Assembly (NCBI GenBank): GCA_017612555.1
Contig: JAGAFR010000021.1
Span: 1 to 60,575 of the forward strand
From: Lachnospiraceae bacterium
GTDB taxonomy: Bacteria > Bacillota > Clostridia > Lachnospirales > Lachnospiraceae
DNA length: 60,575 bases
Direction of reading: 5' to 3'
The position numbers and the translations under genes were made by a program. The notes below the pieces were generated by a model. It saw only the letters and a program-made list of their open reading frames with translations. It did no database searches and was not told where the DNA came from. Of the stretch, positions 15,573 to 46,941 are shown piece after piece; positions within the stretch are counted from its first letter, which is position 1, and each line of letters begins with the position of its first letter.

Positions 15573-15698
15573 AACGAATTACCGTTTGTGGCAAAAGACT
15601 TGGAGTGCGTTGTTACTTGACGAGGTTTTTCACGAGTCTAGTAACGTGACGCACGGAAACGAGCGCAAGCGCCTTTTGACACAAATGCGTAATTCGTT
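15573..15698 (+). repeat. Structured dispersed repeat, copy A
   Basis: A 126-base element that folds into a three-way junction. The outer helix pairs 15573-15597 with 15673-15698 (arms start AACGAATTAC). A long inner hairpin pairs GTGCGT (15605-15610) with ACGCAC (15649-15654), GTTACT (15612-15617) with AGTAAC (15640-15645) and GAC with GTC, closed by a loop with GAGGTTTTTCACGA. A GCAA loop in AGC-GCAA-GCG (15662-15671) forms a small third hairpin. Copies B (46640-46775, opposite strand) and C (46801-46941) share the junction and loops, while the helices differ yet still pair. Strand is given for the GNRA-loop reading; the surrounding genes are on the minus strand. Confidence 0.85.
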
Positions 15699-15705
15699 AA
15701 GGCCG

Positions 15706-15963
15706 TCAGGCGTTAACAACAAGGTACCGTCCGTCGGGAAGACAGAAGACCTCCGACTGCTCCCTGATCTCATCTTCGCTCATTCCCTCGGTATCGACAC
15801 CCATCTCGTCGAAGTATTCTATCACTTCTTCGATGTTATCCACAACAACCGACATCGATTCTTCGAGAAAATCCCGCGCTTCATCCGGTGTGGATGCGAT
15901 CTCCTCGTCAAACAGCTGTCCCTGGTTTTCAAGAAAACAGTTTAACACATCTTTATCAAACAT
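15706..15963 (-). CDS. Small acidic conserved protein of unknown function
   Basis: An 85-residue, strongly acidic protein (LFDEEIASTPDEARDFLEES, VVVDNIEEVIEYFDEMGVD, EVFCLPDGRYLVV) with no membrane segment and one cysteine in the C-terminal third. I do not recognise a characterised domain, although small proteins of this kind seem common in Lachnospiraceae. It begins three bases after the ppk stop codon with GGAG nine bases upstream, so it is probably translated from the ppk message. Its stop codon lies eight bases from the outer arm of repeat A. It could be an accessory protein for the polyphosphate genes, but that rests on position only. Confidence 0.75.
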   Translation of the reverse strand: MFDKDVLNCFLENQGQLFDEEIASTPDEARDFLEESMSVVVDNIEEVIEYFDEMGVDTEGMSEDEIREQSEVFCLPDGRYLVVNA

Positions 15964-15966
15964 ACT

Positions 15967-18078
15967 CTACGCTCCTTCTATCGGTATGAACACTCTGCTG
16001 TTTATAACGGCATCTTCCGCCGATTCATCTGCCGCATTTCTGCAGAAAACCTCCTGCGCACACACAAGCTCCCTGCCCCTTTTATCTATACGCTCATACG
16101 TTCCGTCAGCCTGTTCTATCCTTGCTTTTACGGTATCGGCAAGCAGAGTCTCAAGTATGCCGATCACCCTTTCTTTCAGATTCTCGTCAAGTATCGGGAA
16201 CATTATCTCAACGCGGCGAAGCAGGTTTCTCGGCATCCAGTCCGATGATCCGCAATACACTTCACTGTTACCTGCATTCTCAAAATAGAACACTCTGCTG
16301 TGCTCCAGAAAATCACCTACGATACTTCGCACCGTGATGTTCTCGGACACACCCTTTACCTGAGGTTTGAGACAGCATATACCGCGCACGATAAGATCGA
16401 TCTTAACACCCGCACACGATGCGTCGTAAAGAGCATGGATCACTTCCTTGTCACAGATGGCATTGACTTTTGCTATTATCCTTGCCCTCTTTCCTGCTCT
16501 GGCATTGTTTGCTTCCCTCTCTATCAGATGGATGAACCTGTCCTTGAGCCACAGCGGCGCAACAGAAAGCCTGTTCCAATAAAGCGGCTCCGAATATCCG
16601 CTCAGCATGTTAAATACAGCCGTTGCATCCTCTCCTATCTGTTCCGCGCATGTAAGAAGTCCGAGATCCGTATATAACTTTGCCGTACTGTCGTTGTAAT
16701 TACCGGTCCCGAGATGCACGTACCTTCGTATCCCGTCCTCTTCACGTCTTACGACGAGCGTTATCTTGCAGTGTGTCTTGAGTCCCACAAGTCCGTAGAT
16801 AACATGGACTCCTGCTTTCTCAAGTTTGCGGGCCCAAACGATATTGTGTTCCTCATCAAACCGTGCCTTCAGTTCAACAAGTACCGTAACCTGCTTACCG
16901 TTCTCGGCAGCTTCCGCAAGTGCAGCGACTATAGGCGAGTTACCGCTCACTCTGTAAAGGGTCTGTTTGATCGCAAGAACCTCCGGATCCTTGGCTGCGC
17001 TCTTTACAAAATCTATTACCGGATCAAACGTCTGATACGGATGATGCATCAGTATATCATGCATCCTTATTGACTCAAATATATCATCACCGTCGTTTAT
17101 CTCGGGGACCGCGGAAGGCACATGATCAGCCCTCTTTAAATGATCGAATCCCTGTACGCCATAAAGCTTCATAAGAAAAGTCAGATCGATAGGACCCGGG
17201 ATGCTGTAGATATTATCCTCTCTGACCGACAGCTCCATCTTCAGTATCTCCATAAGTCCCGGATCGATATCTTCGGCCACTTCCAGTCTTATGACCTCGC
17301 CCCATTGACGGCGCTTTATCTGCTTTTCTATCTCTTTGAGAAGATCCGCAGCCTCTTCCTCGTCGATAGTAAGATCAGCATTTCTCATTATCCTGTAAGG
17401 ATACGCGCAGAACACATCGTAATTAAGAAACAGCTTCGACATGTTGCGCTCTATCACTTCTTCGAGCAGTATGAACGTCCTGCCGGAAGAAGACGGGAGC
17501 TCGACTATCCTCGGGAGCACGGAGGGTACCTGGACCGTTGCAAAATCACGCAAGTCTCCGCCTTTCTTTCCGATAAGCGCTCCAATATTAAGCGATTGGT
17601 TTCTTACAAGAGGGAACGGTCTTGAAGAATCCACAGCCATGGGCGTCAGCACCGGGTACACTTCTTCTTCGAAGTATCTGTCGACATACTCGGCCTGTTC
17701 ATCCGTCAGATTCTCATGCTTTGTGATGAAGTTGATCCCCTCCACTTCCATGAGCGGGAGCAGCGTATGAAGCAAAACAAAATACTGTGTCTCCACAAGT
17801 TCATGAGTCTTGCGCGAGATCGCCGACAACTGCTCATCGATGGTCATCCCTGCGATATCCTTCTTGTTATAACGCGCATGCTGCATATCGATAAGAGACG
17901 CCACTCTTACCATGAAGAATTCATCAAGATTGGATGCTGTTATCGACAGGAATTTGAGTCTCTCCATAAGAGGATTCGACACATCGGTCGCCTCCCCGAG
18001 AACTCTCTCATCAAACATCAGCCATGACAGCTCTCTGTTTACGTAGTAATCTTTATTGCCAAAATCATTCATGCTCAT
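15967..18078 (-). CDS. ppk1: Polyphosphate kinase 1
   Basis: A 703-residue enzyme that reversibly makes long-chain polyphosphate from ATP. The N-terminal domain begins YYVNRELSWLMFDERVL, followed by the head domain and two phospholipase D-like C domains. Catalytic signatures are HPYQTFDPVIDFV, LVELKARFDEEHNI, YGLVGLKTHCKITLV, the autophosphorylated histidine in YVHLGTGNYND, and EHSRVFYFEN. Its ATG overlaps the TGA of the Ppx/GppA gene by 4 bp, so synthesis and breakdown enzymes are coupled at translation. Confidence 0.97.
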   Translation of the reverse strand: MSMNDFGNKDYYVNRELSWLMFDERVLGEATDVSNPLMERLKFLSITASNLDEFFMVRVASLIDMQHARYNKKDIAGMTIDEQLSAISRKTHELVETQYFVLLHTLLPLMEVEGINFITKHENLTDEQAEYVDRYFEEEVYPVLTPMAVDSSRPFPLVRNQSLNIGALIGKKGGDLRDFATVQVPSVLPRIVELPSSSGRTFILLEEVIERNMSKLFLNYDVFCAYPYRIMRNADLTIDEEEAADLLKEIEKQIKRRQWGEVIRLEVAEDIDPGLMEILKMELSVREDNIYSIPGPIDLTFLMKLYGVQGFDHLKRADHVPSAVPEINDGDDIFESIRMHDILMHHPYQTFDPVIDFVKSAAKDPEVLAIKQTLYRVSGNSPIVAALAEAAENGKQVTVLVELKARFDEEHNIVWARKLEKAGVHVIYGLVGLKTHCKITLVVRREEDGIRRYVHLGTGNYNDSTAKLYTDLGLLTCAEQIGEDATAVFNMLSGYSEPLYWNRLSVAPLWLKDRFIHLIEREANNARAGKRARIIAKVNAICDKEVIHALYDASCAGVKIDLIVRGICCLKPQVKGVSENITVRSIVGDFLEHSRVFYFENAGNSEVYCGSSDWMPRNLLRRVEIMFPILDENLKERVIGILETLLADTVKARIEQADGTYERIDKRGRELVCAQEVFCRNAADESAEDAVINSRVFIPIEGA

Positions 18079-19607
18079 AACCTCTTATAACGCAGCACCG
18101 GTTTGATCGAGAACACTTCCTCAAACAGCGAAGCTTTTCTCGAGAAGAATCCCTGCTCCAGATCTATATCATCAACCGTGAACACATTTATGATAAGCTC
18201 GCCTCCCTTGACGGAGAACCTGACATCGTTGACTTTCGTCCTGTAGCTTCTGCACACACCGTCCGCTATACGGAACATGGCGGAAAGCTTGGCTATCTTG
18301 ATATAACTCTCTCTGTCAATAAGCGACGTCGTCGCAACCTCACTGTAATACCTAAACGGTGTCTTATTGAACCGTACTATGTTAGCGACTATCTCTCGTT
18401 CCGCATGGGACAGACCTATCATCTCCGTAGCCATGATGATCTCGTATCCGCATTCGGCACCGGCCTCTATGCTGATGTATCTGCCGCAGTCATTAAGAAG
18501 AGATGCGATGATGAGAAGAAGCTTATCGCGCCTTGCCATCCCGTGTATCTTGCGCGTCGCATCAAACAGATCGCAGGCTACTTTTTCAATAAGTTCATTT
18601 CGCGCTTCATTTCCCTGATAACGCTTGGACATTACTTTCGCGCAAGCTATTATGTCATTTTCAAAATCATGCCTGTAGTGTACAAGTTTTTCCTTTTCGG
18701 CATATTCATACGCCATACCGTCACAAAGAGATACGCCGGGAGACCAGATCGTCTCGGCCTTCGTTATCTTGATGACTCTTGAAACGAGAGATACCGCAGG
18801 AAGAAGGAGGGGCGCAGTCTCTTCACTGATCCCGTATTCCTTCGCTATGGCAGCCGTGTCCATCATTCTGATCTTGGCGCATACTTCCTTGAATCTCCCG
18901 GATGTAAATGCACGATCCTTCGATCCCGAATGATAGAGCATTGCAGATACGTAATCATCTATCAGTATCAGATTCTTGATCGTTCTTCCTTTAAGATAGA
19001 GCTTCTTGAACACCTGCAGCTGATTATCGATCAGTTCCTTCAGGATGCCTTCCATATCCCTTGTCTTGGGTGACAGGGTAGCGAGCATATCCATCGTTCG
19101 AAGGACACCGAGTCTTATGTTCTGCGTCGTTACAAGCGTATCGTTATCAAAAAGAGAGATCTGGATGCTGCCGCCTCCCACGTCAACGATCGCGCATCCT
19201 TCTCTTATAAATTCATCAAATCTGGAGCCTTTGATCGCGGCTGCTTTGTAATGGAGGAATCTCTGCTCCGAGTTCGAGAGGACTTCCACTTTGATCCCGG
19301 TACGCAGTTTGATCTGCTCGAGTACGATTGCCGTATTCTTGGTCTCTCTTATGGCACTCGTTCCATACGCTTTGTAATCATCTACTTTGTATGACTTCAT
19401 TATGGATGAAAAATCAGCCAGCACGTCACAGAGTTCATCCATATGTTCCATATCGATGATCCCGTTCTGATACGTATCCGTTCCAAGCTCGATCGAATGA
19501 CGTATACTGTCTATTTCTTTCATTCCGTTCTTCTGTGAGAATTCATATATCTTGAGCCCAAGCTCGTATGAACCCACATCTACAGCGGCAAATGTACGAA
19601 CAGCCAT
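18075..19607 (-). CDS. ppx: Ppx/GppA family exopolyphosphatase
   Basis: A 510-residue enzyme of the ASKHA fold that removes phosphate from polyphosphate or converts pppGpp to ppGpp. The N-terminal domain has AAVDVGSYELGLKIYE, GTSAIRETKN, EVLSNSEQRFLHYKA and the second phosphate loop AIVDVGGGSIQISLF. An HD-like C-terminal domain (from about 310) carries LLIIASLLNDCGRYIS and GLSHAEREIVANIVRF. The ATG at 19607 follows GGAGG; earlier in-frame codons overlap the previous gene and are not needed. Linkage to ppk1 favours exopolyphosphatase as the main activity. A possible link to the stringent response cannot be judged here. Confidence 0.93.
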   Translation of the reverse strand: MAVRTFAAVDVGSYELGLKIYEFSQKNGMKEIDSIRHSIELGTDTYQNGIIDMEHMDELCDVLADFSSIMKSYKVDDYKAYGTSAIRETKNTAIVLEQIKLRTGIKVEVLSNSEQRFLHYKAAAIKGSRFDEFIREGCAIVDVGGGSIQISLFDNDTLVTTQNIRLGVLRTMDMLATLSPKTRDMEGILKELIDNQLQVFKKLYLKGRTIKNLILIDDYVSAMLYHSGSKDRAFTSGRFKEVCAKIRMMDTAAIAKEYGISEETAPLLLPAVSLVSRVIKITKAETIWSPGVSLCDGMAYEYAEKEKLVHYRHDFENDIIACAKVMSKRYQGNEARNELIEKVACDLFDATRKIHGMARRDKLLLIIASLLNDCGRYISIEAGAECGYEIIMATEMIGLSHAEREIVANIVRFNKTPFRYYSEVATTSLIDRESYIKIAKLSAMFRIADGVCRSYRTKVNDVRFSVKGGELIINVFTVDDIDLEQGFFSRKASLFEEVFSIKPVLRYKRL

Positions 19608-19608
19608 C

Positions 19609-20898
19609 TCAACCTCCCCCTTCGCGGGCCCCTCCTGACAGCATATGGTCGATAAACTGCTGGGCGCACCGTCCCGACAGTCCGCCGTGACCCAGTTCCC
19701 ATTTGTTAGCTTCAAGTAACAGTTCCTCTTCACTCATATGAAGATCGCTTCTTGCTGCGATCGCCTTGACGATCTCATTGAACTGTTTCTTATCAGGTCT
19801 TCCGAAGTATATCGTCTCTCCGAACCTGTAGGACAACGAGAGTTTTTCCTGAACCGTATCATTCGAATGAAGATCATCATCCCTGTCATCCTTGTCGGAA
19901 TTCTTCTCCCGGACTATATGTCTTCTGTTGCTTGTCGCATATATGAGTATGTTTTCGGGTTTCTTCTCAAGACCGCCCTCTATGACTGCCTTGAGGTATT
20001 TGTAATCGGTCTCGAAATCCTCAAAGGAAAGATCATCCATATAAATGATGAACCTGTAGTTCCTTGTCTTGATCTGATCGATCACATCGTTAAGATCCCG
20101 GAACTGATGCTTGTATATCTCTATCATGCGAAGACCGCGGTCATAATATCTGTTCAGTATACCCTTGATGCTGCTTGATTTTCCGGTCCCGGCATCTCCG
20201 AACAGAAGGCAGTTGTTGCAAGGTCTTCCGGCAAGAAACGCCTCCGTATTGTCAACAAGCTTCTTCTTGGCACTTTCATATCCCACAAGATCTTCGAGCT
20301 GAACATGCAGTATGTTAGTGATCGGTACGATCTTTACACCGGCATCCGTGTGTTCAACCCTGAACGCCTTGTGAAGTCCGAATTTTCCCACTCCGAACTC
20401 TTTGTAAAACTGTGCGGTCTTCGCGGTAAAATCTTCATCAGATTCTGCGGCCGCGAGCCGATCGCGAAGTTCCATTATGCTGTCACGTATGCGCTTGTTA
20501 AAGAGCCTCGATCTGTCCCGGTCAACGGTATAATCTGTCAGCATCCTTGAAAAATCGGTACCGCATATACCGTCCATCTCGGAAAGATCCATCACGAACA
20601 ATTCCCTGAATATGGACAGATCAAAAAGTGCTGCCTCGGCGATCGACCCGTTGGGCATACCCCGCATCTCACATGAAGTTGAAAATGCATTCTCATTGTT
20701 CGCAATAAGATACGTAAGATATGCCTGCCACAGATTGCCGGAGTATCCGTGGCTGACAGCCAGTTCAACAAGTTCGCCCGCAAAATCGGTCATATGCGAT
20801 TTTGCATCCGCATCTTCTCCCGACATTATGACCGATGCAAGACCGAGTATATTCCCATGTTTGAAATCCCGATACAGTATCAGTTCATTACTTCGCAT
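19609..20898 (-). CDS. DUF815 ATP-binding protein (AAA-type)
   Basis: A 429-residue protein of the DUF815 family of P-loop ATPases. The N-terminal 190 residues are poorly conserved. The ATPase core has LEDLVGYESAKKKLVDNTEA, Walker A LFGDAGTGKSSSIKGIL, Walker B FIIYMDDLSFEDFE and a sensor-like ILIYATSNRRHIVRE; the C-terminal lid holds LSLSYRFGETIYFGRPDKKQ. No function is established for the family. It ends one base before Ppx begins and its ATG lies 11 bases inside the chorismate mutase-like gene, with GGAGG upstream. Position suggests a role tied to polyphosphate or envelope synthesis, as inference only. Confidence 0.85.
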   Translation of the reverse strand: MRSNELILYRDFKHGNILGLASVIMSGEDADAKSHMTDFAGELVELAVSHGYSGNLWQAYLTYLIANNENAFSTSCEMRGMPNGSIAEAALFDLSIFRELFVMDLSEMDGICGTDFSRMLTDYTVDRDRSRLFNKRIRDSIMELRDRLAAAESDEDFTAKTAQFYKEFGVGKFGLHKAFRVEHTDAGVKIVPITNILHVQLEDLVGYESAKKKLVDNTEAFLAGRPCNNCLLFGDAGTGKSSSIKGILNRYYDRGLRMIEIYKHQFRDLNDVIDQIKTRNYRFIIYMDDLSFEDFETDYKYLKAVIEGGLEKKPENILIYATSNRRHIVREKNSDKDDRDDDLHSNDTVQEKLSLSYRFGETIYFGRPDKKQFNEIVKAIAARSDLHMSEEELLLEANKWELGHGGLSGRCAQQFIDHMLSGGAREGGG

Positions 20899-21241
20899 CC
20901 GACCCGAACCCTCCGAGGCTTTCAAGGTTTATCTCAACAGGTTCTCCTGACCAGTCAAAATCATCCTCCATTCCCGACATCTCTTCCTGAATCTCACGGC
21001 TTACCTGCATGAGCGTTATGAACAACTGTGCCGCACCGTCCGCATAATCTTCGTTACCTACCGCTTCAAATATCTTCTCAAGCTTTTCATCTTCACGTGC
21101 CGCATCGTAAATGGGAAGATCGTTGTCTATCTTGTATTGACCGATCTTTCTTGCAACATCCATTCTCTCTTCATACAATTTCAATATCTTCGCATCTATC
21201 CTGTCTATCTGTTCGCGAAGCTTTTTTATATCCTCAGCCAT
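20888..21241 (-). CDS. Chorismate mutase type II (AroQ) domain protein
   Basis: A 117-residue protein whose first 85 residues match the helical AroQ chorismate mutase domain: LREQIDRIDAKILKLYEERM, RKIGQYKIDNDLPIYDAAREDEKL and LFITLMQVSREIQEE. Arg, Lys and Glu residues expected at the active site are present in these segments. Residues 90-117 are an acidic tail. Its neighbours are glycosyltransferases and an ATPase, not aromatic amino acid genes, so it may be a stand-alone mutase moved into this operon or a domain used for another purpose. Confidence 0.85.
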   Translation of the reverse strand: MAEDIKKLREQIDRIDAKILKLYEERMDVARKIGQYKIDNDLPIYDAAREDEKLEKIFEAVGNEDYADGAAQLFITLMQVSREIQEEMSGMEDDFDWSGEPVEINLESLGGFGSDAK

Positions 21242-21245
21242 CCGA

Positions 21246-22355
21246 TCATTCCTCCAACTCTCTTTTACACAACCCGGTGATGGTATCTACCATGTGCGGC
21301 CACGAGAATCTCTCTGAATCTTCTCTTATATTCGTCACAAAATCCGTATCGGCCCGAAGCATCATGAACCTCCGAACAGCCTGCGAAAGCGAATCGATAT
21401 CTCCCGCTTTACACAGCACTCCGGTAACCCCGTCAATAACAACCTCCGGAAGTCCTCCCGCATCGGATACTATGACAGGTTTCTCAAGTCCCAGTGCGAT
21501 CTGGGCGATACCGCTCTGAGTCGCTTCAATATACGGAAGCACAACAACATCACAGTCTGCAAAGTATTGTTCCACTTCCCTGTCGGGAACAAATCCTTCT
21601 CTTATTGTCACCCTGTCTGACAGGTTTCCATCCTCTATGATCCTGTCATACTCCTCGCGGCTTCCTCCGAAATCACCGACGACGCTGAGCCTCACATCAT
21701 CCGGAAGCGTTTTCATTGCGGCAAGCAATACACCAAGTCCCTTATAAGGACGCACAACTCCGAAGAACAGCATGTTAAGACCTTCTGTTTCTTTTGTCTG
21801 TCTCTTCACATCACCCATCTTGTATGCGCTGTATGTGGGGTGCATGTTTATGGCATATTTTGCATCCGGTACGATGCTCAGAAGATCTGCTGCTTCCTTC
21901 TTGGAATGAAGAACAAAATAATCCCCCTTCTTCAGCACCGCCCTCGTAAGCGCCCTGTCCATCGGAAATCTCTCGTGGGGGAACACGTTATGACACAGGA
22001 ACAGTATCCTTGACCTGAGCCTCTTCGTCAGTATCCGATAACACGGAGAAAAATACGGATGCCACCACTCAATCAGAACAAGATCGACATTCAGGCTGTT
22101 GATATATCTTGCGCATGATGCGATATTAAACGGATTGGCGGTATTGATAAGAAACTGTGCATCATCGACCTTGAATCCGTCATTCTCATAATCCTTCTGC
22201 TCTCCCCGAAACATAAAACGCGGGTACTGCATCTTATATGAGATCGTATAAACCGTATACTTTTCCTTCAGCGCCCGGACAAGCAATCCGGTATAATGCG
22301 ATATCCCGCTCTTATACGGATATACCGGTCCGATGACCGCGATCTTTTTTGACAT
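21246..22355 (-). CDS. Glycosyltransferase, GT4 family
   Basis: A 369-residue GT-B fold transferase with no membrane segments. The N-terminal domain has GPVYPYKSGISHYTGLLVRAL. The C-terminal nucleotide-sugar domain has LNMLFFGVVRPYKGLGVLLAA, the E-x7-E region VLPYIEATQSGIAQIALGLEKPVIVSDAGGLPEVV and GVLCKAGDIDSLSQAV. Donor and acceptor are unknown. It is the third of three consecutive transferase genes and probably adds a sugar to a cell-surface glycan or lipid carrier. Confidence 0.92.
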   Translation of the reverse strand: MSKKIAVIGPVYPYKSGISHYTGLLVRALKEKYTVYTISYKMQYPRFMFRGEQKDYENDGFKVDDAQFLINTANPFNIASCARYINSLNVDLVLIEWWHPYFSPCYRILTKRLRSRILFLCHNVFPHERFPMDRALTRAVLKKGDYFVLHSKKEAADLLSIVPDAKYAINMHPTYSAYKMGDVKRQTKETEGLNMLFFGVVRPYKGLGVLLAAMKTLPDDVRLSVVGDFGGSREEYDRIIEDGNLSDRVTIREGFVPDREVEQYFADCDVVVLPYIEATQSGIAQIALGLEKPVIVSDAGGLPEVVIDGVTGVLCKAGDIDSLSQAVRRFMMLRADTDFVTNIREDSERFSWPHMVDTITGLCKRELEE

Positions 22356-22374
22356 TTATTATTTTCCTTTTACT

Positions 22375-23436
22375 TCATCCGGAATGTGAAGATAACTTCC
22401 TGTAAGTTGTAAAGAACAGCGCCAGCAGCTTTGTCCATCTTCGCCTGATAAGAAACAACGGGATCTTCTTGGTAAATGTAAGATACCCGTACGATAATTT
22501 TTCAAAAGCTTCACTGTAAGGCATCTGATCCGCAGCCGATCCCAGCTGCTTCATCCTCTCGGCATAAGGCTTCGGATTGTTCGGATTGCAGTAATCCATT
22601 TCCATGCTTTCGAGGTACAAAAACATGCATCGCATATAAAAAACCTGCATGAAATATTCGGATTTCCCCGTGCGTACCAGGAATTCATGGAGCTTATCAA
22701 GCGCATCGGTAAACACCTTAATACCGCCGTCTCTGTACATATATGTGGCCGAATCCGACAGCTGCCTGTAATAGTACATATGCCGGTTGATGTATCCGAT
22801 CCTGTCCGCAGCCTCAAACACCTGTATGTTAAACACAACATCTTCCGACCGCTCTATTCCTTCGGGATACTTCAGGTCATTGTCGGCAAGAAGCGATCGT
22901 TTGTAAAGTTTAGAACAACATGAACCCGATCCGTATATGCTGCACGGGTATTCATATACAGGGAGAGAGCCCGCAAGAGTCTTAAGCTGCAGGAATTCCT
23001 TCTGTTTATCGTCAAGAAGCGGTATATCAGCGACAAACGGGCTGTACTCGATCTTCCTGTTCGGATAGACCTTGTATGTCCCCCAAAGCAGCAGATCAAG
23101 ATCATTTTGCAACGCATGATCATAGGCGATCGCAAGACAGTTATTATCGATCCGGTCATCGGAATCAACGAACGTTACATATTCTCCGTTACAGACTGAC
23201 AATCCCGCATTTCTTGCAGCCGATGCACCTTTATTCTCCTGATGTATCACACGGATCCGATCATCCTGTTCGGCATAAGAGTCGAGAAGATCGGCATTTT
23301 CCCTTGGAGCTCCGTCATCGACCAGTATGATCTCGATCTCCTTAAGAGACTGGCCCAAAACGCTGTCAATACACTCCCGCAGATAAGCCGGATCGACCCG
23401 GTACACAGGTATGATGACCGATACTTTAGTGCTCAT
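22375..23436 (-). CDS. Glycosyltransferase, GT2 family
   Basis: A 353-residue GT-A transferase: VSVIIPVYRVDPAYLRECID at the N-terminus, the first aspartates in IEIILVDDGAP, GASAARNAGL and the DXD-type motif YVTFVDSDDRID. The C-terminal 120 residues are variable, as in EpsJ/WcaA-like enzymes of polysaccharide synthesis. Two in-frame ATGs lie three codons apart (23445 and 23436); neither has a clear ribosome-binding site and both overlap the preceding gene, so translational coupling is likely. Confidence 0.9.
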   Translation of the reverse strand: MSTKVSVIIPVYRVDPAYLRECIDSVLGQSLKEIEIILVDDGAPRENADLLDSYAEQDDRIRVIHQENKGASAARNAGLSVCNGEYVTFVDSDDRIDNNCLAIAYDHALQNDLDLLLWGTYKVYPNRKIEYSPFVADIPLLDDKQKEFLQLKTLAGSLPVYEYPCSIYGSGSCCSKLYKRSLLADNDLKYPEGIERSEDVVFNIQVFEAADRIGYINRHMYYYRQLSDSATYMYRDGGIKVFTDALDKLHEFLVRTGKSEYFMQVFYMRCMFLYLESMEMDYCNPNNPKPYAERMKQLGSAADQMPYSEAFEKLSYGYLTFTKKIPLFLIRRRWTKLLALFFTTYRKLSSHSG

Positions 23437-24394: not shown

Positions 24395-24436
24395 GATATT
24401 ATTCTCCATCCTGCCATGATCATGTTTATCTACGAG

Positions 24437-24445
24437 ATTATAACA
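24437..24445 (-). promoter_or_regulatory. Probable extended -10 promoter of the glycosyltransferase-ppk operon
   Basis: TGTTATAAT on the minus strand is a perfect extended -10 (TG, one base, TATAAT). No good -35 is present at 17 or 18 bases, which is tolerated by extended -10 promoters. The start would be near 24430, giving a leader of about 35 nt. The rest of the 162-base divergent gap (24395-24556) holds no clear promoter for ddh. Confidence 0.55.
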
Positions 24446-24556
24446 TTTTTAGGTTAATTTTTCATCTTCTATTCCATTTTTTGCCATAAAGTGAGACAAT
24501 GTTCATCGATATCATACCGATCAAAAAACAGAACACCATGTATCAGGAGGAACAAT

Positions 24557-32217: not shown

Positions 32218-32276
32218 TTTCACCTTCCGATCATGCTAAACACAAGCCCTGCTCATATGCAGAGCATACCGTATAA

Positions 32277-32318: not shown

Positions 32319-32353
32319 AAAACAAATTTTTTTTATCAAAGGAGGTTTTGATC

Positions 32354-32803: not shown

Positions 32804-32820
32804 AGCGGGAATCAATAAAC

Positions 32821-32857
32821 ATCCTGTCCCGATCAAACAGTCGGGGCAGGATTTTTT
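32821..32857 (+). terminator. Intrinsic terminator between the zinc-ribbon gene and trpB2
   Basis: A 12-bp stem with one mismatch (32821-32832 with 32841-32852, 8-base loop) followed by six T. This is the clearest terminator in the window. It ends only about 20 bases before the trpB2 start, leaving no room for a separate promoter after it. Confidence 0.88.
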
Positions 32858-32878
32858 AAGTATAAGAAAGGAAAACAT

Positions 32879-34252: not shown

Positions 34253-34253
34253 G

Positions 34254-36807: not shown

Positions 36808-36821
36808 CGTGATCCCCGGGC

Positions 36822-37376: not shown

Positions 37377-37400
37377 AATATTCTCCTTTCATGTAAAAAC

Positions 37401-37443
37401 CATGTACATGACCATTCTACTATCATTTGAGCTGAGCGGTCAA
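37401..37443 (-). promoter_or_regulatory. ECF operon promoter with palindrome at the start point
   Basis: Minus-strand -35 TTGACC (37438-37443), 18-base spacer, -10 TAGAAT (37414-37419), overlapping the last codons of the upstream gene. The predicted start point (about 37407) falls within a perfect 10-bp palindrome CATGTACATG (37401-37410), and a further half-site ACATG lies just downstream. The palindrome is a candidate operator for a substrate-responsive repressor. Confidence 0.62.
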
Positions 37444-39765: not shown

Positions 39766-40892
39766 TCTGCAGTTGACGTATTCTTCTTAAGTCTCCTGAT
39801 CCACAGTCTCTGTATCACATATCCGATCAGATACATATCGGCAACAATACCGACTAGCATTCCGATGAACGGGATAAGTCTTACTATCTCAAGTGCTGCT
39901 ATTCCGATGAGTGCCGACAGGAAAATGTTCATATTCGGCAGGAACAGTCTTACAAGAGAAGCCCCCGCAAATGCAAGTCCCGCACACAAAAGCAGTACAT
40001 ATGCGAGCAACAGCATTCCGCCGATAGGAGCCAATATATATGTGCAGCAAAGCATGATCGCTACGATCGGAATGGCGATCCAGCCTATGATACCGCTTCC
40101 CACCATTGCACCGGGTCTTGTCTTCATAAAAGTTGCCGCAGTTTCAAGATGCTCTGTAAAGAGCCAGCAAAGGATCATTCCGAATGCTGCCATTGCAACG
40201 ATCCAATACAGTCCGCTGGTAACCTTCTTGAAAAGAGCCGCTGCAATACCTGCTGCTCCGAATGCCGATTTATCGTCATCGTCGTCAGTCACCTGCTCAT
40301 ATTCATAGTCAACTATTTCAGCATCATCAGCTATCACGGGCTCATTTGCACTCTTTACGGTAAGCTTACCCATGATGACCGTTCCGTCCTTAATCTCAAC
40401 ATTCTGCCCGTCAAGCGTTACGTCACCGTCGATCACACCGTCTACAGTGATATTTGTTCCTCCTGCATACAGGCCCTTTGCCACACCGTAGAACTCAACA
40501 TTGGTTCCTGCGATGTATATTCCGTTTGCTTCTGTTCCGGAGGATACGCTTACATTGTTTCCGGCAGCAAATACGTTACCGTCGATGTCACAGCCCGTAA
40601 CCGACACATCACTGCCTGCGGCGAACACGCTCTCGCGTACTTTACAGTCATCGATCGAAACGCTCTGTCCGGCCGCATAGATCCCGCCCTTTACTTCACT
40701 GTCCTCCAGCTCTACCTCTTTACCTACCGTAAAAGCCCCAAAGATCGACTGGTCCGAAAACTTTACTTCATCACCGGATGAAAACACGTTACCTGCGCTG
40801 TCTACGGTAGTATCAGTTTCGGCCGATACCGTCTGACACATCAGGATTGCGATAAGCATTGCGGCAAATCCCGCAAAAAATCTCTTACTCAT
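39762..40892 (-). CDS. Secreted/membrane polymer-forming (bactofilin-like) protein
   Basis: A 376-residue protein. A signal peptide (1-24, ending VSAE) precedes a beta-helical region (about 30-180) made of short repeats such as GGIYAAGQSVSI, ESVFAAGSDVSV, GNVFAAGNNVSV and KGLYAGGTNITV, resembling polymer-forming cytoskeletal (bactofilin) domains. An acidic linker with a run of Asp follows, then four to five membrane segments (about 220-360) and a basic C-terminus. The beta-helix would face outside. AAGGAG is 12 bases before the ATG, longer than usual. It is coupled to the MurD-CapA gene. Confidence 0.85.
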   Translation of the reverse strand: MSKRFFAGFAAMLIAILMCQTVSAETDTTVDSAGNVFSSGDEVKFSDQSIFGAFTVGKEVELEDSEVKGGIYAAGQSVSIDDCKVRESVFAAGSDVSVTGCDIDGNVFAAGNNVSVSSGTEANGIYIAGTNVEFYGVAKGLYAGGTNITVDGVIDGDVTLDGQNVEIKDGTVIMGKLTVKSANEPVIADDAEIVDYEYEQVTDDDDDKSAFGAAGIAAALFKKVTSGLYWIVAMAAFGMILCWLFTEHLETAATFMKTRPGAMVGSGIIGWIAIPIVAIMLCCTYILAPIGGMLLLAYVLLLCAGLAFAGASLVRLFLPNMNIFLSALIGIAALEIVRLIPFIGMLVGIVADMYLIGYVIQRLWIRRLKKNTSTAE

Positions 40893-40966
40893 GATCTAAT
40901 ACATCTCCTTTTCACTGTGTTATGGATAATTTATGAACACATCACCGATATTTTACCACAAAAATC

Positions 40967-40995
40967 TTGTGCAGTCTCACACTTTTGAGTATCAT
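40967..40995 (+). promoter_or_regulatory. Promoter of the SGNH hydrolase gene
   Basis: Plus-strand -35 TTGTGC (40967-40972), 17-base spacer, -10 TATCAT (40990-40995). The start would be near 41002, giving a 40-nt leader with GGAGG before the ATG at 41042. On the other strand an extended -10 (TGG-TAAAAT) near 40952-40960 may serve the polymer-forming gene. Confidence 0.6.
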
Positions 40996-41041
40996 TAACA
41001 ATTGTAACAATGTTCATACCTCAGGGAAACGGAGGAAAGCA

Positions 41042-41695
41042 ATGAAAAAGATAATTTGCTTCGGCGATTCAAACACATACGGATATAACCCGGAAACAGG
41101 CGGCAGATACGATGAGAACACGCGGTGGCCAAAGCTCCTTGCAAAATCCCTCGGCGACGGCTATGAAGTATTCGAAGAAGGCCAGAACGGCAGGACCATT
41201 GCAAATGACGACCCGTGGGAAGGCGGCACAAAATGCGGTCTTGATTATGTGCTTCCCATGATCGAATCCAAAAAGCCCGTGGATCTTCTTATCATCATGC
41301 TCGGATCCAACGACCTGAAGCTGAAGTTTTCTCTTCCCCCTGCGGATATCGCCGGAAGCCTGATCAAGATGATCTCAGACATCAGAGGATACTGCGATCA
41401 CTTTATCGGATGCCCGGATCTTCGGATCCTCATAATCGCTCCGCCCGCTTTTACCGAACCTTTTTCGGAGTCATACTTTGCTTCATTTTTCGGAAAAGAA
41501 GACGCAGTGGCTCGTTCAAAAGAGCTTGCTAAATGGTACGAGCTTGTCGCCGAGCAAAATGACTGCTATTTCCTAAACGCAACAAAAGAGGTAGCCGCAA
41601 ATTCATGCGACCACCTCCATATGTCGCCCGCAGACCACAAAAAGCTGGCTGAACTTGTAAAAGACAAGATCACAGATATCTTCAAGGAATCATAA
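41042..41695 (+). CDS. SGNH/GDSL hydrolase
   Basis: A 217-residue esterase-like enzyme. The four blocks are present: IICFGDSNTYGYNP with the nucleophile Ser, GQNGRTIAND, LLIIMLGSNDLK and CDHLHMSPADH with the catalytic Asp and His. It has no signal peptide, so it acts in the cytoplasm, possibly as an arylesterase or deacetylase on small molecules. GGAGG precedes the ATG; the open frame upstream includes promoter sequence and is not coding. Confidence 0.93.
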   Translation: MKKIICFGDSNTYGYNPETGGRYDENTRWPKLLAKSLGDGYEVFEEGQNGRTIANDDPWEGGTKCGLDYVLPMIESKKPVDLLIIMLGSNDLKLKFSLPPADIAGSLIKMISDIRGYCDHFIGCPDLRILIIAPPAFTEPFSESYFASFFGKEDAVARSKELAKWYELVAEQNDCYFLNATKEVAANSCDHLHMSPADHKKLAELVKDKITDIFKES

Positions 41696-41732
41696 ACGAC
41701 GGGGTGTATCGATAGTGTTCAGGGAGAAAGTT

Positions 41733-42833
41733 ATGTGGCTAATTATCTTCGCAGTCTCTATTCTTGCAGGGATAGCAGCTGCAATTTATATGGCAAATAA
41801 AATAACAGGCACCGGATTGTTTGCCGGTATAAGCAGTAAAGCCCTAACCCGAACTCTTTCGATAACGTCCGTTATTGTCATTATCGTCGTGTTATGTTTC
41901 GTTTCTGATATAACAAATACGATCGTTATTTTTATTCATTTTGCCGTTTTTCTCCTGATCGGAGATCTTATCGGCGCCGTCATAAGAAAGACTTCCGCTT
42001 CAGCGATAAGCCCCCGTTTCATTGACCTTATGGCTCTTACAACTTGCATTGTCTACCTGATCATCGGCTGGATACTGATGCACGGCATGTGGGAGACCGA
42101 CTATCATCTTTCCACAGCAAAAAAGATCGTTTCGCTGCGTATCGCACATATCGCAGACTCTCACGTGGGATGCGGTTTTTCGGGAAAAGGTTTTGCCGAC
42201 AGACTCGAAAAGATCCAACTGACGGAGCCGGATATACTTGTGATCACCGGGGATTTTGTGGACGATGACACGAAGCGGGACGACATGATCGAAGCATGTG
42301 CAGCGCTTGGCTCGTTCAAAGCAAAGTACGGAGTATTTTTCTGTCTCGGAAATCATGATATGGGATACTATTCAAGCGGAAGGCGGGGATACACGGGAGA
42401 TGAAATGCTGGATGAACTGAGAAAGAACGGTGTCAGGGTTCTTCTTGACGAAAGCGAGCTTGTTGATGACAGATTCTACGTCATCGGAAGACGTGATGCC
42501 GATTACGGAAGGTCTGACCGCAAAGATACATCCGAACTGATACGGGATCTTGATAAGGAAAAATACATGATCGTTCTCGATCATCAGCCTACGGACTATG
42601 ACAGTGAAGCTTTGGCAGGTGTTGATCTTGTCCTGTCGGGACATACCCATGGCGGCCAGCTCTTTCCTCTTGAATACATACAGCCGCTCGTATCAAATAA
42701 CAACAATGTCCGTGGTCACGAAAAGCGCGGCAATACCGATTTTATCGTAACCGACGGGATCTCGGACTGGGCTGTCGAGTTCAGGACCGGCTGCAAGTCA
42801 GAATTCAACCTGATCGACGTATCATCCCTTTAA
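41733..42833 (+). CDS. Membrane metallophosphoesterase (YkuE-like)
   Basis: A 366-residue protein with four N-terminal membrane segments (about 2-22, 46-66, 68-92 and 100-122) and a calcineurin-like phosphoesterase domain: RIAHIADSHVGCG, LVITGDFVDDD, FFCLGNHDMGYYS, IVLDHQPTDYD and LVLSGHTHGGQLFP, providing the dimetal ligands. The substrate is unknown; related enzymes act on lipids or UDP-sugars. I prefer the ATG at 41733, with AGGGAG six bases before it, over a GTG at 41715 that lies upstream of that site. The last 12 bases overlap the convergent DUF2130 gene. Confidence 0.92.
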   Translation: MWLIIFAVSILAGIAAAIYMANKITGTGLFAGISSKALTRTLSITSVIVIIVVLCFVSDITNTIVIFIHFAVFLLIGDLIGAVIRKTSASAISPRFIDLMALTTCIVYLIIGWILMHGMWETDYHLSTAKKIVSLRIAHIADSHVGCGFSGKGFADRLEKIQLTEPDILVITGDFVDDDTKRDDMIEACAALGSFKAKYGVFFCLGNHDMGYYSSGRRGYTGDEMLDELRKNGVRVLLDESELVDDRFYVIGRRDADYGRSDRKDTSELIRDLDKEKYMIVLDHQPTDYDSEALAGVDLVLSGHTHGGQLFPLEYIQPLVSNNNNVRGHEKRGNTDFIVTDGISDWAVEFRTGCKSEFNLIDVSSL

Positions 42834-44015
42834 TTCTTCAAACTTGGCCTGCATGGTGGGATTGTCCTTTGTAAGTCTCTTAATGCTGACATCCTCTACC
42901 TTGCCGTTTGCGATCCGCAGCTGATTGTCGGATCCCAGAAGTTCCTTCTTGACCTTTTCGAGATGCTGTATCGTCTTGTCTATCTCTTCTATCGCCTTGT
43001 CAAAATGCGCATGAGCTAAGTTGTAATTCCTTCCGAAATCATCCTTGAACTTAAGTAAGCTCTGCTCAAAATTGGATATATCGATATCCTGATTGCGGAC
43101 CGTTTCAAGCTCCTGTTTATAGGTAAGCGCGTTCATCGCGGCATTACGCAGCAGAGTGATTATCGGTATAAAGCACTGCGGGCGCACAACATACATCTTG
43201 TCATACTTGTATGACACATCAACGATCCCGGCATTATAGAGCTCACTGTCGGCTTCAAGCATGGAAACGAGGACGGCATACTCACAATTCTTCTCGCGCC
43301 TGTCCTTGTCAAGTTCTTTGAAGAAATCTTCGTTTCTGTGCTTTGTCGCGGTCTCATCCATCTCGTTCTTCATCTCAAACATGATGGATATGATCTCTAC
43401 ACCGTTATCATCACACTCACGGTATATGTAGTCACCCTTGCTGCCGCTTTTGGCATCATTGTCTTTTTCAAAATAAGCATTCTTAAATGCCGTGGCACGG
43501 AGCTGATTGAACTGTATCTCACAGTGCTGCTCAAGCGTCTCGCCCACCATCTTGGTGGACATCTTTGTCTTAAGATCCTTGTAGTATGCGATCTGCTCGT
43601 CCTTCTGCTTTAACAGGAACTCTTCCTTATCCCTCTGCTCGATGAGTTTCCTCTCAAGATCACGGTTCTTATCTTCCACCGTCTTGACGGCCTTCATGAC
43701 TGCGATCTCATTTTTGTCCTCCATCCTTTCGATATCAGACTTATATTTCGCCGCTTTCTCCTCCGCATCCTTAAGACGGTCAGACAGCTTCTTTATCTCT
43801 TTTTCATACTCATCGCCGATCTTAAGCTTAAGCTCATTTTCTTTCGACTCCAGTTCCAGCATATGCTTTTCCTTCATATGCTCCGTCAGTTCTTCAACTC
43901 TTTCGTCTACATCCCTGGCAAATTCACTGTCCCTTATCTGGGATATGATCGAGCCAAGCTCCGTATCATCTACCGTAAATGCCTGCCCGCAGTGAGGGCA
44001 CTTCAGTTCCGCCAT
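42822..44015 (-). CDS. DUF2130 protein with zinc finger and coiled coil
   Basis: A 397-residue protein. Residues 1-15 hold a CxxC knuckle (LKCPHCGQAF); about 20-165 is a long charged coiled coil; from about 165 the DUF2130 domain begins with MVGETLEQHCEIQFNQLRA, FEKDNDAKSGSKGDYIYRE and MFEMKNEMDETATKHRNEDF, a pattern resembling PD-(D/E)XK nuclease folds (the D, E and K in GDYIYRE and FEMK). A role in DNA processing is plausible but unproven. AAGGAG lies before the ATG. It is 24 bases after clpB and may share its heat-shock transcript. Confidence 0.87.
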   Translation of the reverse strand: MAELKCPHCGQAFTVDDTELGSIISQIRDSEFARDVDERVEELTEHMKEKHMLELESKENELKLKIGDEYEKEIKKLSDRLKDAEEKAAKYKSDIERMEDKNEIAVMKAVKTVEDKNRDLERKLIEQRDKEEFLLKQKDEQIAYYKDLKTKMSTKMVGETLEQHCEIQFNQLRATAFKNAYFEKDNDAKSGSKGDYIYRECDDNGVEIISIMFEMKNEMDETATKHRNEDFFKELDKDRREKNCEYAVLVSMLEADSELYNAGIVDVSYKYDKMYVVRPQCFIPIITLLRNAAMNALTYKQELETVRNQDIDISNFEQSLLKFKDDFGRNYNLAHAHFDKAIEEIDKTIQHLEKVKKELLGSDNQLRIANGKVEDVSIKRLTKDNPTMQAKFEELKG

Positions 44016-44039
44016 ATAAACTCCTTGATATAAGACGCA

Positions 44040-46616
44040 TCACCGGGCGACGAGTTCGCCGCCCTGTGCATCAATGGTTATTGTATCACCTTCCGAGATG
44101 TTACCTTCAAGTATCTTCTTCGCAGCAAGCGTCTCGACCGTACGTTGCATATAACGCTTCAGCGGACGCGCTCCGTATACCGGATCATATGCCGCCGAAA
44201 CTATAAGATCTGAGGCGCTGTCGGTAAGAGCTATCGTTATCTCCTTATCGGAAAGCCTGTCATTGACATCTTTGAGTATCAGTTCCATTATACCGCTTAT
44301 ATTGTCTTTTGTAAGCGGTTTGAACATGATCGTCTCATCAAGACGGTTCAGGAACTCGGGACGAAAACCTGCGCGGAGTTCATTCATGACAGACTCCCTT
44401 GCTTCCTCGCTGATATTCCCGTTCTCATCTATGCCGTCAAGAAGATACTGCGCTCCGATATTGCTGGTCATTATCAGTATCGTGTTCTTGAAATCGACCG
44501 TACGACCCTGCGAATCCGTGATACGTCCGTCATCAAGCACCTGGAGAAGAACGTTGAACACATCCGGGTGGGCCTTCTCTATCTCATCGAACAATACAAC
44601 AGAATATGGTTTTCTCCTTACCGCTTCCGTAAGCTGTCCGCCTTCCTCGTATCCCACATATCCGGGAGGCGCTCCGATAAGACGTGATACGGAGAACTTC
44701 TCCATATACTCACTCATGTCTATCCTGACCATGTTGTTCTCGTCGTCAAACAGGCTTGCCGCAAGCGATCTTGCAAGTTCGGTCTTCCCGACACCGGTAG
44801 GACCCAGGAACAGGAATGATCCGATAGGCTTTGACGGATCCTTGATACCGGCCTTGGAACGGATGATCGCTTCGGTGACTTTGGTGACACCTTCATCCTG
44901 ACCAATGACTCTTTTATGAAGCTCTTCATCTAGATGGAGTATCTTATTCCTTTCACCCTCGGTAAGCTTGGAAACCGGAATGCCCGTCCAGCGACTTACG
45001 ATCATGGAGATCTCTTCTTCCGATACGTTCTCATGAACGAGCGTTAAGTTCTTTTCATCGACGGTCTTCTCTTCCTGTGAAAGCTGTGCCTGAAGTTCCG
45101 GAAGCTTTCCGTACTGAAGCTGTCCTGCAAGTTCATAGTTGTTTTCTCGCTTGGCGATCTCGATCTCTTTTCCAACCTTCTCGATCTCTTCACGAAGACT
45201 TGAAAGCTTGTCTACGGAAGCCTTCTCATTCTCCCATTTGGTCACCTTGAGCGTATACTCTTCCTTGACTTCCGACAACTCCTTCTGGAGTATCTCGAGT
45301 CTCGAACGGCTGAGCTGATCTGTCTCCTTCTTAAGTGCAGCTTCTTCTATCTCAAGCTGCATCATTCTCCTTCTGAGTTCATCAAGCTCTGTCGGCATCG
45401 AATCCTTCTCGGTCTTAACAAGTGAGCAAGCTTCATCAACGAGATCGATCGCCTTATCCGGAAGGAACCTGTCCGTGATATATCTGTCCGAAAGTGTTGC
45501 TGCTGCAACGAGCGCCGTATCTACTATCTTGACCTTATGAAAGTTCTCATATCTTTCCTTGATACCTCTTAGTATCGATATCGTATCCTCGACAGTGGGT
45601 TCGTCAACGGTAACGGGCTGGAACCTTCTCTCAAGAGCCGCATCCTTTTCTATGTATTGTCTGTACTCATCAAGTGTTGTCGCACCTATACAGTGGAGCT
45701 CACCGCGTGCGAGCATCGGCTTTAGCATATTACCGGCATCAAGTGCACCGTCGGTCTTTCCCGCGCCGACTATCGTGTGAAGCTCATCGATGAACAGCAG
45801 TATCCTGCCATCGCTTGCTTTTACATCTTCAAGTACTGCCTTAAGACGCTCCTCGAACTCTCCGCGGTATTTTGCTCCGGCAACGAGCGCTCCCATATCA
45901 AGCGCGAACACTGTCTTGTCCTTGAGGCTGTCCGGAACATCTCCGTTGACTATACGCTGCGCAAGTCCTTCAACTACAGCGGTCTTGCCGACACCGGGCT
46001 CACCTATGAGGACCGGATTGTTCTTCGTCTTTCGCGACAGAATTCTGATAACGTTTCTAATCTCGGTGTCTCTTCCTATAACGGGATCGAGCTTCTGCTC
46101 TCTCGCACGGTCCACAAGATCGATGCCGTACTTTTCAAGTGTATCGTATGTTGCCTCGGGATTGTCCGTCGTGACGTTATGGTTTCCGCGCACGGTGGCA
46201 AGAGCCGTAAGGAACCTCTCCCTTGTGATCCCGTACTCCTTGAACAGATCCTTGATATCGCTGTCAGGATATTTGAGCATGCACAAAAAAAGATGCTCGA
46301 CCGACACATAATCATCGTTCATGGCCTTTGCCTCATCCTCGGCCGAGACAAGAACCTTGTTGAGCTTATTTCCGACGAATACGTTCCCGCCGGAAACCTT
46401 CGGGCGCTTTGCGATATGTGATTCGATGTTATCCGTAAAATGCTCCCTGTTGATCTCCATCTTCTCGATAAGATTGGGGAGCAGACCGTCTTCCTGAGTC
46501 ATCAGCGCATACAGGAGGTGGATCTGCGCGATCTCCTGATTGCCGTTGTCATATGCTATTTTCTCGAGTGAATTGATCGCATCGAGAGATTTCTGCGTAA
46601 ATTTCTGTATATTCAT
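44040..46616 (-). CDS. clpB: ClpB disaggregase
   Basis: An 858-residue AAA+ chaperone that rescues aggregated proteins with DnaK. N-domain (1-145), AAA1 ([35 protein letters not shown]), the M-domain coiled coil (about 405-520, from [20 protein letters not shown] to KREN), AAA2 ([46 protein letters not shown]) and a short C-terminal domain. The M-domain and lack of a ClpP-binding LGF/IGF loop separate it from ClpC. AGGAG is eight bases before the ATG. Transcription should start near 46951 under CIRCE control, giving a leader of about 335 nt that contains repeats B and C. Confidence 0.97.
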
Positions 46617-46639
46617 AGTATCAACTCCTCTCTTATTAT

Positions 46640-46775
46640 GCCTTTCGTGATTTGGCTATTGCACAAAAAGGCGCTTGCGCTCGTTTCCGCGCGTCACGTT
46701 ACTAGGCTCGAAAAAACCTCGCCAAGTAACAACGCGCTCCAAGTCTTTTTGTTGCAATACCCAATCACTCAAGGC
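46640..46775 (-). repeat. Structured dispersed repeat, copy B (clpB leader)
   Basis: The outer helix pairs 46640-46670 with 46745-46775 (GCCTT..GTGATT..TATTGCA..CAAAAAG with a few bulges). The inner hairpin, read on the minus strand, pairs GCGCGT (46732-46737) with ACGCGC (46689-46694), GTTACT with AGTAAC and GGC with GCC, around GAGGTTTTTTCGA. The third hairpin has the same GCAA loop as copy A. The core (46671-46744) is close to copy A, whereas the outer arms are unrelated in sequence. It ends about ten bases upstream of the clpB ribosome-binding site, in the same orientation as clpB. Confidence 0.85.
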
Positions 46776-46800
46776 TTTTCAGGTTTTCAAGAGTACACTT

Positions 46801-46941
46801 AGAGCCGAGGACAGACATATTCGCGCCAAAACATTTGGAGGACGTCTGCGCTTGACGAGGTTTTCACGAGTCTAGCGTCAGCTACGTCCGGAAAATAGCG
46901 AGAGCGCGTTTTGGCGGGAATACTGTCTGTCCGCTGGCTCT
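46801..46941 (+). repeat. Structured dispersed repeat, copy C (clpB leader)
   Basis: The outer helix pairs 46801-46832 with 46908-46941 (AGAGCC..GGACAGACA..TATTC..CGCCAAAAC). Inner hairpin: GGACGT (46840-46845) with ACGTCC (46884-46889), then CTG/CAG, CGCT/AGCG and GAC/GTC around the conserved GAGGTTTTCACGA loop. The third hairpin loop is GAGA (46900-46903) instead of GCAA, still a GNRA loop. Sequence differs from A and B in all helices, but pairing is kept. It is the 5' half of the clpB leader and lies in reverse orientation to clpB; 25 bases separate it from copy B. Confidence 0.82.

Follow-up and report, generated by a model that had tools for sequence, protein, structure and literature searches.

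Short Lachnospiraceae repeats with a conserved folded core and mostly private arms resemble non-autonomous mobile elements

What is the sequence that occurs three times on one contig of a Lachnospiraceae bacterium, each time folding into a three-way junction closed by outer arms of its own? The window, the 60,575-nucleotide stretch of DNA analyzed here, had received an initial annotation that guessed at either a new structured RNA or a single-strand-folding mobile element. All three copies (A, B and C) were located at the positions given there, and the three-way-junction fold it described was confirmed with z-scores of -4.5, -7.1 and -8.5, respectively; for each copy none of 200 dinucleotide shuffles folded as well. 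The helix changes it listed are legible directly in the sequence, and the outer arms are, as it had said, unrelated between copies and paired within their own copy. The junction TTGGA / GGAAA, described as invariant, is common to A, B and C but is not kept across the wider family (alignment A2). Copy A lies upstream of an ABC-F-like ATPase gene and comprises the following parts.

15573..15698, plus strand: copy A, complete element (fold; model R1 match at 15579-15687, 102.8 bits)
15573..15597, plus strand: left outer arm, 5' side of stem P1 (fold)
15605..15654, plus strand: inner stem P2 (fold; the helix covaries in the family)
15616..15641, plus strand: sequence-conserved terminal hairpin CTTGACGAGGTTTTTCACGAGTCTAG (invariant columns of alignment A2)
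15663..15670, plus strand: GNRA (GCAA) mini-hairpin P3 (fold; GNRA loop survey)
15671..15698, plus strand: right outer arm, 3' side of stem P1 (fold)
13898-15535, minus strand: ABC-F-like ATPase gene (NF011646, 678.5 bits, under the cut-off of 762)

Copies B and C stand back to back, as a pair, in the clpB leader.

46640..46775, minus strand: copy B, complete element, left member of the pair (R1 match at 46657-46763, 101.3 bits; fold)
46801..46941, plus strand: copy C, complete element, right member of the pair (R1 match at 46814-46922, 98.1 bits; fold)
46640..46941, no strand: B, spacer and C as one dimer in (-,+) orientation (50 bases separate the model matches)
44040..46616, minus strand: clpB, downstream of B and C (TIGR03346, 1333.1 bits, cut-off 1232.1)
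46958..46986, minus strand: clpB promoter-like site TTGACA-17-TATCAT (11 of 12 consensus positions; consensus scan)

The two members differ in core type, with a core identity of 0.71. Given the position of the promoter-like site, B and C lie between it and clpB. The site overlaps 46974-47000, which we take to be a CIRCE-like repeat, and no terminator-like site was found in 46500-47100.

The three copies belong to a large, dispersed and apparently undescribed family of short repeats in Lachnospiraceae. At E ≤ 0.001 the model matched 24 sites in the genome of the window (G000) and 47 in its relative G036, and within one genus the number per genome ranged from 0 to 47, several of these genomes being incomplete MAGs. 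At E ≤ 1e-8 the family was present in 145 of 397 sampled genomes, more than one third of the sample from this major gut and rumen group. A class-wide sample of 291 genomes yielded 7 matches, all inside Lachnospiraceae. Rfam 15 gave no match at the gathering threshold in the window or across 15 loci of other genomes, and at E ≤ 10 the 451 bases around B and C (46600-47050) returned a single irrelevant match. A search of the freely accessible literature found no description of such a repeat. The initial annotation knew of no named RNA or repeat family with these motifs. Plasmids queried with copy C only and phages queried with copy A only gave no match, while 4 pattern matches in viral contigs resemble chance hits.

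Across the family, the terminal hairpin CTTG-R-CGAGG-TTTT..CGAG-Y-CTAG and the GNRA mini-hairpin are conserved. This core hardly varies, and the long self-complementary stem around it has private sequence in most copies. Element length is about 126-141 bp for A, B and C and about 130-150 bp in the family; by eye, a CAG...CGT border is seen in some copies. L005, L028, L109 and L117 were removed at the first row filter, and L031, L077, L089, L098 and L124 were left out of alignment A2. Covariation was detected in 27 of 31 pairs. On alignment A4 the small loop is GNRA in 65 of 68 sequences and its third base is a purine in all 68, closed by C-G (61), T-A (6) or T-G (1). This covarying closing pair supports the GNRA register; in model R1 the P3 helix is out of register. 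Both the covariation and the loop conservation speak for a host-selected structured RNA, a stable domain in leaders, intercistronic regions or small RNAs that would affect mRNA stability or bind a protein. Its elements would be the GNRA loop, a protein-binding terminal hairpin and a free closing stem P1, the arms varying since only their pairing counts. Compensated changes in the arms of the orthologues L198 and L201 point the same way, and one locus that carries elements in 6 genomes of the genus also fits a host function.

The initial annotation had gone further and taken compensatory change as a hallmark of selected RNA (or single-stranded DNA) structure. The covariation is real, but the step to RNA is less secure. 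For mismatches in the outer arms, G.U against A.C, the counts show no clear imbalance, at 34:32 in 78 score-filtered copies, 52:37 in all 126 (p 0.14, a lean toward G.U) and 19:15 when read in gene orientation. The inner 12 bases give 86:8 in favor of the RNA reading, though two fixed positions supply 58 of the 86. Raw counts of 138:45 and 114:5 likewise stem largely from fixed wobbles in the inner arm and core; once these are removed, the asymmetry is weak (51:36 for the core on A4, 14:7 for P2). None of the corrected counts is taken here as evidence of selection on RNA. Orientation adds to the case against a structured RNA. A leader RNA or riboswitch would share the orientation of its downstream gene, but relative to co-directional flanking genes 38 elements point the same way and 45 the opposite way (n=83), and at one locus the orientation is reversed between species. 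The uneven copy number within one genus, with the caveat of incomplete MAGs, argues in the same direction. We regard a host-selected RNA as rather unlikely.

Random orientation, arms without clear strand bias and intergenic placement (median distances of 34 and 20 bases, measured to the chosen ORF from a point 10 bases beyond the model match) would suit a DNA-level element in which strand is irrelevant and the palindromic arms extrude as a cruciform, which would bind a chromosomal protein or mark gene borders. Yet the core sequence is asymmetric, with the GNRA loop on one strand only, and copy number differs strongly among related genomes; such an element is improbable. Copies that occupy leaders and intercistronic gaps, as at clpB, may affect expression. 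At matched sites of relatives, inspection by eye found some without a core and one decayed copy; these sites, like the random and locally switched orientation, count for a mobile-type element.

Of the 16 pairs of closely neighboring copies, 15 have the back-to-back (-,+) arrangement, or 14 of 15 by locus, L032 and L089 being a single locus in two genomes, which accounts for their similar spacers. Beyond these 16 pairs we found one more in G036, which is (-,-), as well as four that include a weak member, three of them (-,+) and one (+,+). The members of a close pair had differing cores in 12 of 13 cases compared.

The arms behave differently from the cores. Among pairs of copies with a core identity of at least 0.90, mean arm identity was 0.568 in G000 (87 pairs) and 0.579 in G036 (113 pairs, drawn from 33 copies out of the 47 matches) versus 0.525 for random 18-mers, and no such pair has arms with an identity of 0.8 or higher. 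Even so, arms fit their own partners. In 123 of 126 copies the score exceeds the 95th percentile obtained with mismatched partners, although within a window fixed at 18 bases the two arms of a copy match at no more than 0.618 and 0.660, compared with 0.521 and 0.533 for the arms of other copies. Exceptions to the private arms are L225, L228 and L230, whose arms are alike, and likewise L051/L122. In 34 of 48 usable comparisons the best copy in the same genome, and not the orthologue, had the more similar core; this test sets the best of several against one and so favors the paralogue. The clearest case is L199/L267, where arms at the same locus are 0.86 and 0.95 identical and cores only 0.67.

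Two possible readings of the arm sequences were rejected. An origin as copies of gene ends is not general, with only 16 of 110 copies showing an ORF of at least 90 aa that enters the arm by more than 8 bases. For a role as guides, the 33 G036 arms searched against their own genome gave 43 matches. Of these, 33 were self matches and 2 were partners; the strongest of the remaining 8 spans 21 bases (E 0.075). This search retrieved 2 of 33 partner arms, and merely similar sequence escapes it.

The best sign of movement, judged from sequence in one locus pair of two genomes, comes from L051 (4320-4668) and L122 (1371-1016), which are 90.4% identical over 356 columns with sharp ends. The shared stretch covers the entire 349-bp pair with its arms and spacer, and neither blastn nor a tblastn search with the adjacent ORFs detects similarity in the flanks. 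The apparent presence of this unit at unrelated places favors the mobile-element branch and counts against a structured RNA.

It also bears on the idea that the core inserts into pre-existing hairpins, such as terminators or other inverted repeats, so that the arms would be target DNA. At L301 the arms form a simple 13-bp hairpin that lacks a core, whereas the element is present in the close relative L270, and L308 and L309 bear terminator-like hairpins at the same site, all by eye. As TAC is repeated at both edges of L301, this sequence could equally be a deletion product. Several relatives lack an obvious hairpin at the locus of copy A (by eye), and the arms of L051/L122 moved together with their core. 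In 113 copies no intrinsic-terminator T-run was found after the stem, T content after the right arm being 1.96 per 8 bases versus 1.97 in the control, and A content before the left arm was in mild excess (2.65 versus 1.89). We consider insertion into target hairpins very improbable.

No enzyme was linked to the movement. Mobilization by a RAYT/IS200 transposase was rejected, as Y1_Tnp is absent from G036 (47 matches, 99% complete) and from G000 (a MAG, 89.7% complete). Among the 37 genomes of the genus 18 carry the domain, as do 12 in an additional set of 15; a hairpin was found near 1 of the 25 Y1 loci examined, and the Y1 transposase is not linked to the elements. Considered as a candidate autonomous version, the (-,+) pair at L349 in G036, its members separated by 3.4 kb, flanks an HD-domain protein and a 616-aa ORF that has no Pfam match; no transposase lies between them, and the candidate was rejected.

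Overall, we judge that A, B and C are probably members of a Lachnospiraceae-specific family of short, non-autonomous, mobile-type intergenic repeats similar to REP, ERIC and BOX. Both halves of the original either/or guess survive, with no Rfam match, no described repeat and real covariation, and the L051/L122 unit favors the mobile half. The moving unit would be the back-to-back pair, single copies being its derivatives, and an enzyme might recognize the folded strand in single-stranded form, as RNA or ssDNA. The alike arms of L225, L228 and L230 and the arms copied with the L051/L122 unit mean that the decoupling of arms and cores needs an extra step. Gene conversion or an exchange of cores would later make the cores within a genome alike. 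Self-complementarity of the arms could be kept by palindrome correction at the DNA level (template switching between arms) or by weak selection, so that arms drift in sequence but not in pairing.

A more elaborate variant is possible but tentative. Pairs would spread, and cores of about 100 nt, inserted either way round, would then be swapped among palindromic frames that renew their private sequence by palindrome correction. If true, it would describe spread and homogenization that need neither target duplication nor a Y1 transposase nor lasting shared ends. A conserved core within mostly private self-complementary arms makes these bacterial repeats a test case for concerted evolution or core exchange, and brings a candidate factor recognizing the folded strand within reach of a pull-down.

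How does the preferred reading, a mobile-type repeat family, compare with known systems? REPs are intergenic, many-copy and palindromic, and form inverted dimers in a preferred arrangement, heterodimers being common (PMC3733652). According to this survey, other phyla hold the families tagged GTAG and CGTC; its main text contains neither "Clostridi-" nor "Firmicutes". Our family resembles REP/REPIN/BIME in being intergenic, many-copy and palindromic with inverted dimers often of differing cores, and its preferred (-,+) arrangement (15 of 16) matches, while a REP-head end is not defined for the element. Unlike these repeats, it is much larger and three-way-junctioned, with three helices instead of a single 20-40 bp hairpin tagged GTAG or CGTC, its arms differ in most copies, and the copy-rich G036 and G000 lack the RAYT (Y1) transposase.

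ERIC and BOX are intergenic repeats of roughly 100-150 bp with a long imperfect stem whose sequence is common to the copies, and they have no known transposase. Size, intergenic placement, the long stem and the lack of a known transposase are alike; the outer arms are mostly not shared between copies here, the conserved part being the core. With orphan structured RNAs (riboswitch-like motifs) the family shares covarying helices, a GNRA loop and a free closing stem, but it has neither a fixed gene orientation nor an Rfam match.

The family differs from MITEs in several respects. Target-site duplication was not found, as flanking direct repeats of at least 3 bases occur in 62 of 125 copies against a shuffled mean of 62.4, and shared terminal inverted repeats are not seen, arm identity being 0.57-0.58 against 0.525 for random sequence outside L225/L228/L230 and L051/L122. 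No parent transposon of the family was found. Like MITEs, the elements are short, non-autonomous and scattered, and the sharp-ended 349-bp unit of L051/L122 is the one case that displays the general mark of a non-autonomous mobile element, the same unit at unrelated places.

Re-reading the sequence, we found the three three-way-junction elements of the window at the places and on the strands given in the initial annotation, and they match its description. Each consists of outer self-complementary arms (stem P1) around a core made of an inner stem, a terminal hairpin and a GNRA mini-hairpin.

15573-15698, plus strand, copy A, upstream of an ABC-F-like ATPase gene
46640-46775, minus strand, copy B, between a clpB promoter-like site and clpB
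46801-46941, plus strand, copy C, between the clpB promoter-like site and clpB
46986-46958, clpB promoter-like site, separated from clpB by copies B and C

Folded alone, copy A reaches -52.1 kcal/mol (z -4.45), copy B -62.8 kcal/mol (z -7.13) and copy C -76.2 kcal/mol (z -8.54), and in no case did any of 200 shuffles fold as well. The clpB leaders of the relatives L136, L137 and L138 are without the element; between clpB and a CIRCE-like site they retain a small hairpin, CTATGGTAA..TTACCATAG.

The helices change on both sides, as had been claimed from the three copies. Among 39 aligned copies, 21 of the 31 predicted pairs show both-sided changes. In an alignment of 68 model matches, whose rows were fitted to the model and thus favor pairing and covariation, 96.1% of cells are paired, both-sided variation is seen at 27 of 31 pairs, and covariation scores 0.660, compared with 0.238 after shuffling and no more than 0.148 after sliding. 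The GNRA loop likewise holds across the family, occurring in 65 of these 68 rows and, as a pattern, in 140 of 145 model matches. For the small hairpin, a two-pair stem under this loop is the better reading, the closing pair being C-G in 61 rows, T-A in 6 and T-G in 1, and the next one G-C in 67 and A-T in 1. Across the 39 copies the terminal hairpin (CTTG-R-C-GAGG-TTTT..CGA-G-Y-CTAG) shows almost no variation. Given this conservation of terminal hairpin and GNRA loop, the folded strand, RNA or DNA, may be recognized in trans. Variants exist: in a subfamily (L262, L006 at 1308, L267, L209) the frame is unchanged and the terminal hairpin differs (CTTAGTTGGTG..ACCAACTTATG type), while L283 of genome G033 (match 879-1025), otherwise intact, carries a ~40-nt insertion with a hairpin in its terminal loop.

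No Rfam family matches the element, consistent with its proposed novelty, and a model search of related genomes revealed a dispersed family. A short pattern occurs at 15 places in the window's genome, one of them (L005) without the remainder of the element, and in at least 115 stretches of the genome collection. Most of these records are titled as Lachnospiraceae or as genera belonging to it; the few others, among them Armatimonadota, Chloroflexi and Streptococcus, look like chance matches. At E<=0.001 the model matches 29 of 37 genus genomes, with 24 matches in the window's genome and 47 in the relative G036, although many of the matches in some other genomes are the short hairpin only. Under stricter filters and at E<=1e-8, matches come from 145 of the 397 genomes sampled from the bacterial family, representing 128 of 334 genera; of the 291 genomes covering the class, 7 match, every one within that bacterial family. 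Searches of plasmids with copy C and of phages with copy A gave no match. In Butyrivibrio and other genera the terminal hairpin also occurs by itself, as a short hairpin module; at two Butyrivibrio loci (L126 near 1341-1411, L128 near 2102-2367) this module adjoins tRNA genes or falls between them. Nearly identical pairs of such hairpins, T-rich on the left, recur in the single genome FUZG01 (L025, L037, L046, L102, L108, L121) and look like a recently amplified REPIN-like family.

Arms and core behave differently. We compared 24 copies of the window's genome and 33 of G036, whose cores have mean identities of 0.81 and 0.82 when every pair is counted. For copy pairs with core identity of at least 0.90 (87 and 113), mean arm identity is 0.568 and 0.579 against 0.525 for random 18-mers, and no pair reaches 0.8, although the arms of L225, L228 and L230 in G036 resemble one another. 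In a fixed 18-base window, the two arms within a copy match each other at 0.618 and 0.660, compared with 0.521 and 0.533 for arms taken from different copies. Free local alignment over a longer stretch gives a strong contrast, with median scores of 34 and 12, and 123 of 126 copies exceed the null's 95th percentile. Among 28 same-locus pairs from different genomes, cores were nearer the best same-genome copy than the orthologue in 34 of 48 usable comparisons (8 of 56 were dropped as the second copy was missing from the set), a test biased toward paralogues by taking the best of several against one orthologue, and run on non-independent pairs. L199/L267 is the clearest case: the arms are retained (0.86, 0.95) but core identity is 0.67. 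At some shared loci, such as L001/L253 (0.32, 0.50), arms are no closer than those of unrelated copies.

What keeps the arms paired bears on a serious rival, a host-selected RNA. Compensated arm changes separate the orthologues L198/L201 and L210/L211. In the outer arms G.U and A.C mismatches are nearly equal, at 34 and 32 in 78 score-filtered copies (1388 cells), 52 and 37 in all 126 copies (p 0.14), and 19 and 15 when oriented by co-directional genes. In our reading this near-equality is more in keeping with strand-neutral correction of a DNA palindrome than with RNA-level selection by way of G.U intermediates, with a mild G.U lean possible. The inner 12 bases hold 86 G.U against 8 A.C, 58 of the G.U at two fixed positions.

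In the retrieved loci, neighboring elements less than 1 kb apart lie back to back (-,+) in 15 of 16 pairs, the other being (-,-); counting L032 and L089 once, since they represent the same locus from two genomes, gives 14 of 15 loci. Pair members differ in 12 of 13 pairs compared (core identity 0.69-0.87), as do copies B and C (0.71). The exception, L024 2201-2437, has cores 0.98 identical, flanking a 78-aa DUF3781 gene (PF12636, 112.9 bits). L051 (JAAUZD) and L122 (JAAVAE) share one and the same pair, with its arms and spacer (349 bp, 90.4% identity). Their similarity stops at the pair borders: blastn found none between the flanks, and a tblastn search of L122 with the ORFs next to the L051 pair gave no match. 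That the pair may be a mobile unit is most directly suggested by this single case from two different genomes.

Of 109 copies flanked on each side by an ORF of at least 80 aa, 83 have co-directional neighbors; 38 of these point the same way as the genes and 45 the opposite way. Orientation at one locus can differ between genomes (L196 in G034, L271 in G004). Matched sites vary in content. L270 (G002) has the element where L301 (G004, flanks 92-94% identical) has the arms only, as a hairpin; L303 (G002) lacks the core present in L271 and keeps a short remnant; and at L300 (G004) another repeat (CCAACACCGACTTCGTCGGCGTCGCC...) replaces the element of L268. That repeat also lies within the terminal loop of element L302 (G004). 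L312 has the look of an inverted remnant that was truncated. Neither a target duplication at the element borders nor a T-run beside the arms was found. In relatives, the same intergenic gaps are taken up by a further dispersed repeat, of the GAGACAAAGGAACCGTCCCC / GGGGACGG type (L140, L143, L172).

The initial annotation left the choice between a new structured RNA and a single-strand-folding mobile element. Anatomy and turnover fit the mobile side, in the form of a REP/ERIC/BOX-like repeat that is mobile but non-autonomous. The family nevertheless differs from MITEs, defined by target duplication and shared ends, in having neither, and from REPs in being without two of their defining features, a small tagged hairpin and a link to RAYT, the transposase that mobilizes REP/REPIN elements.
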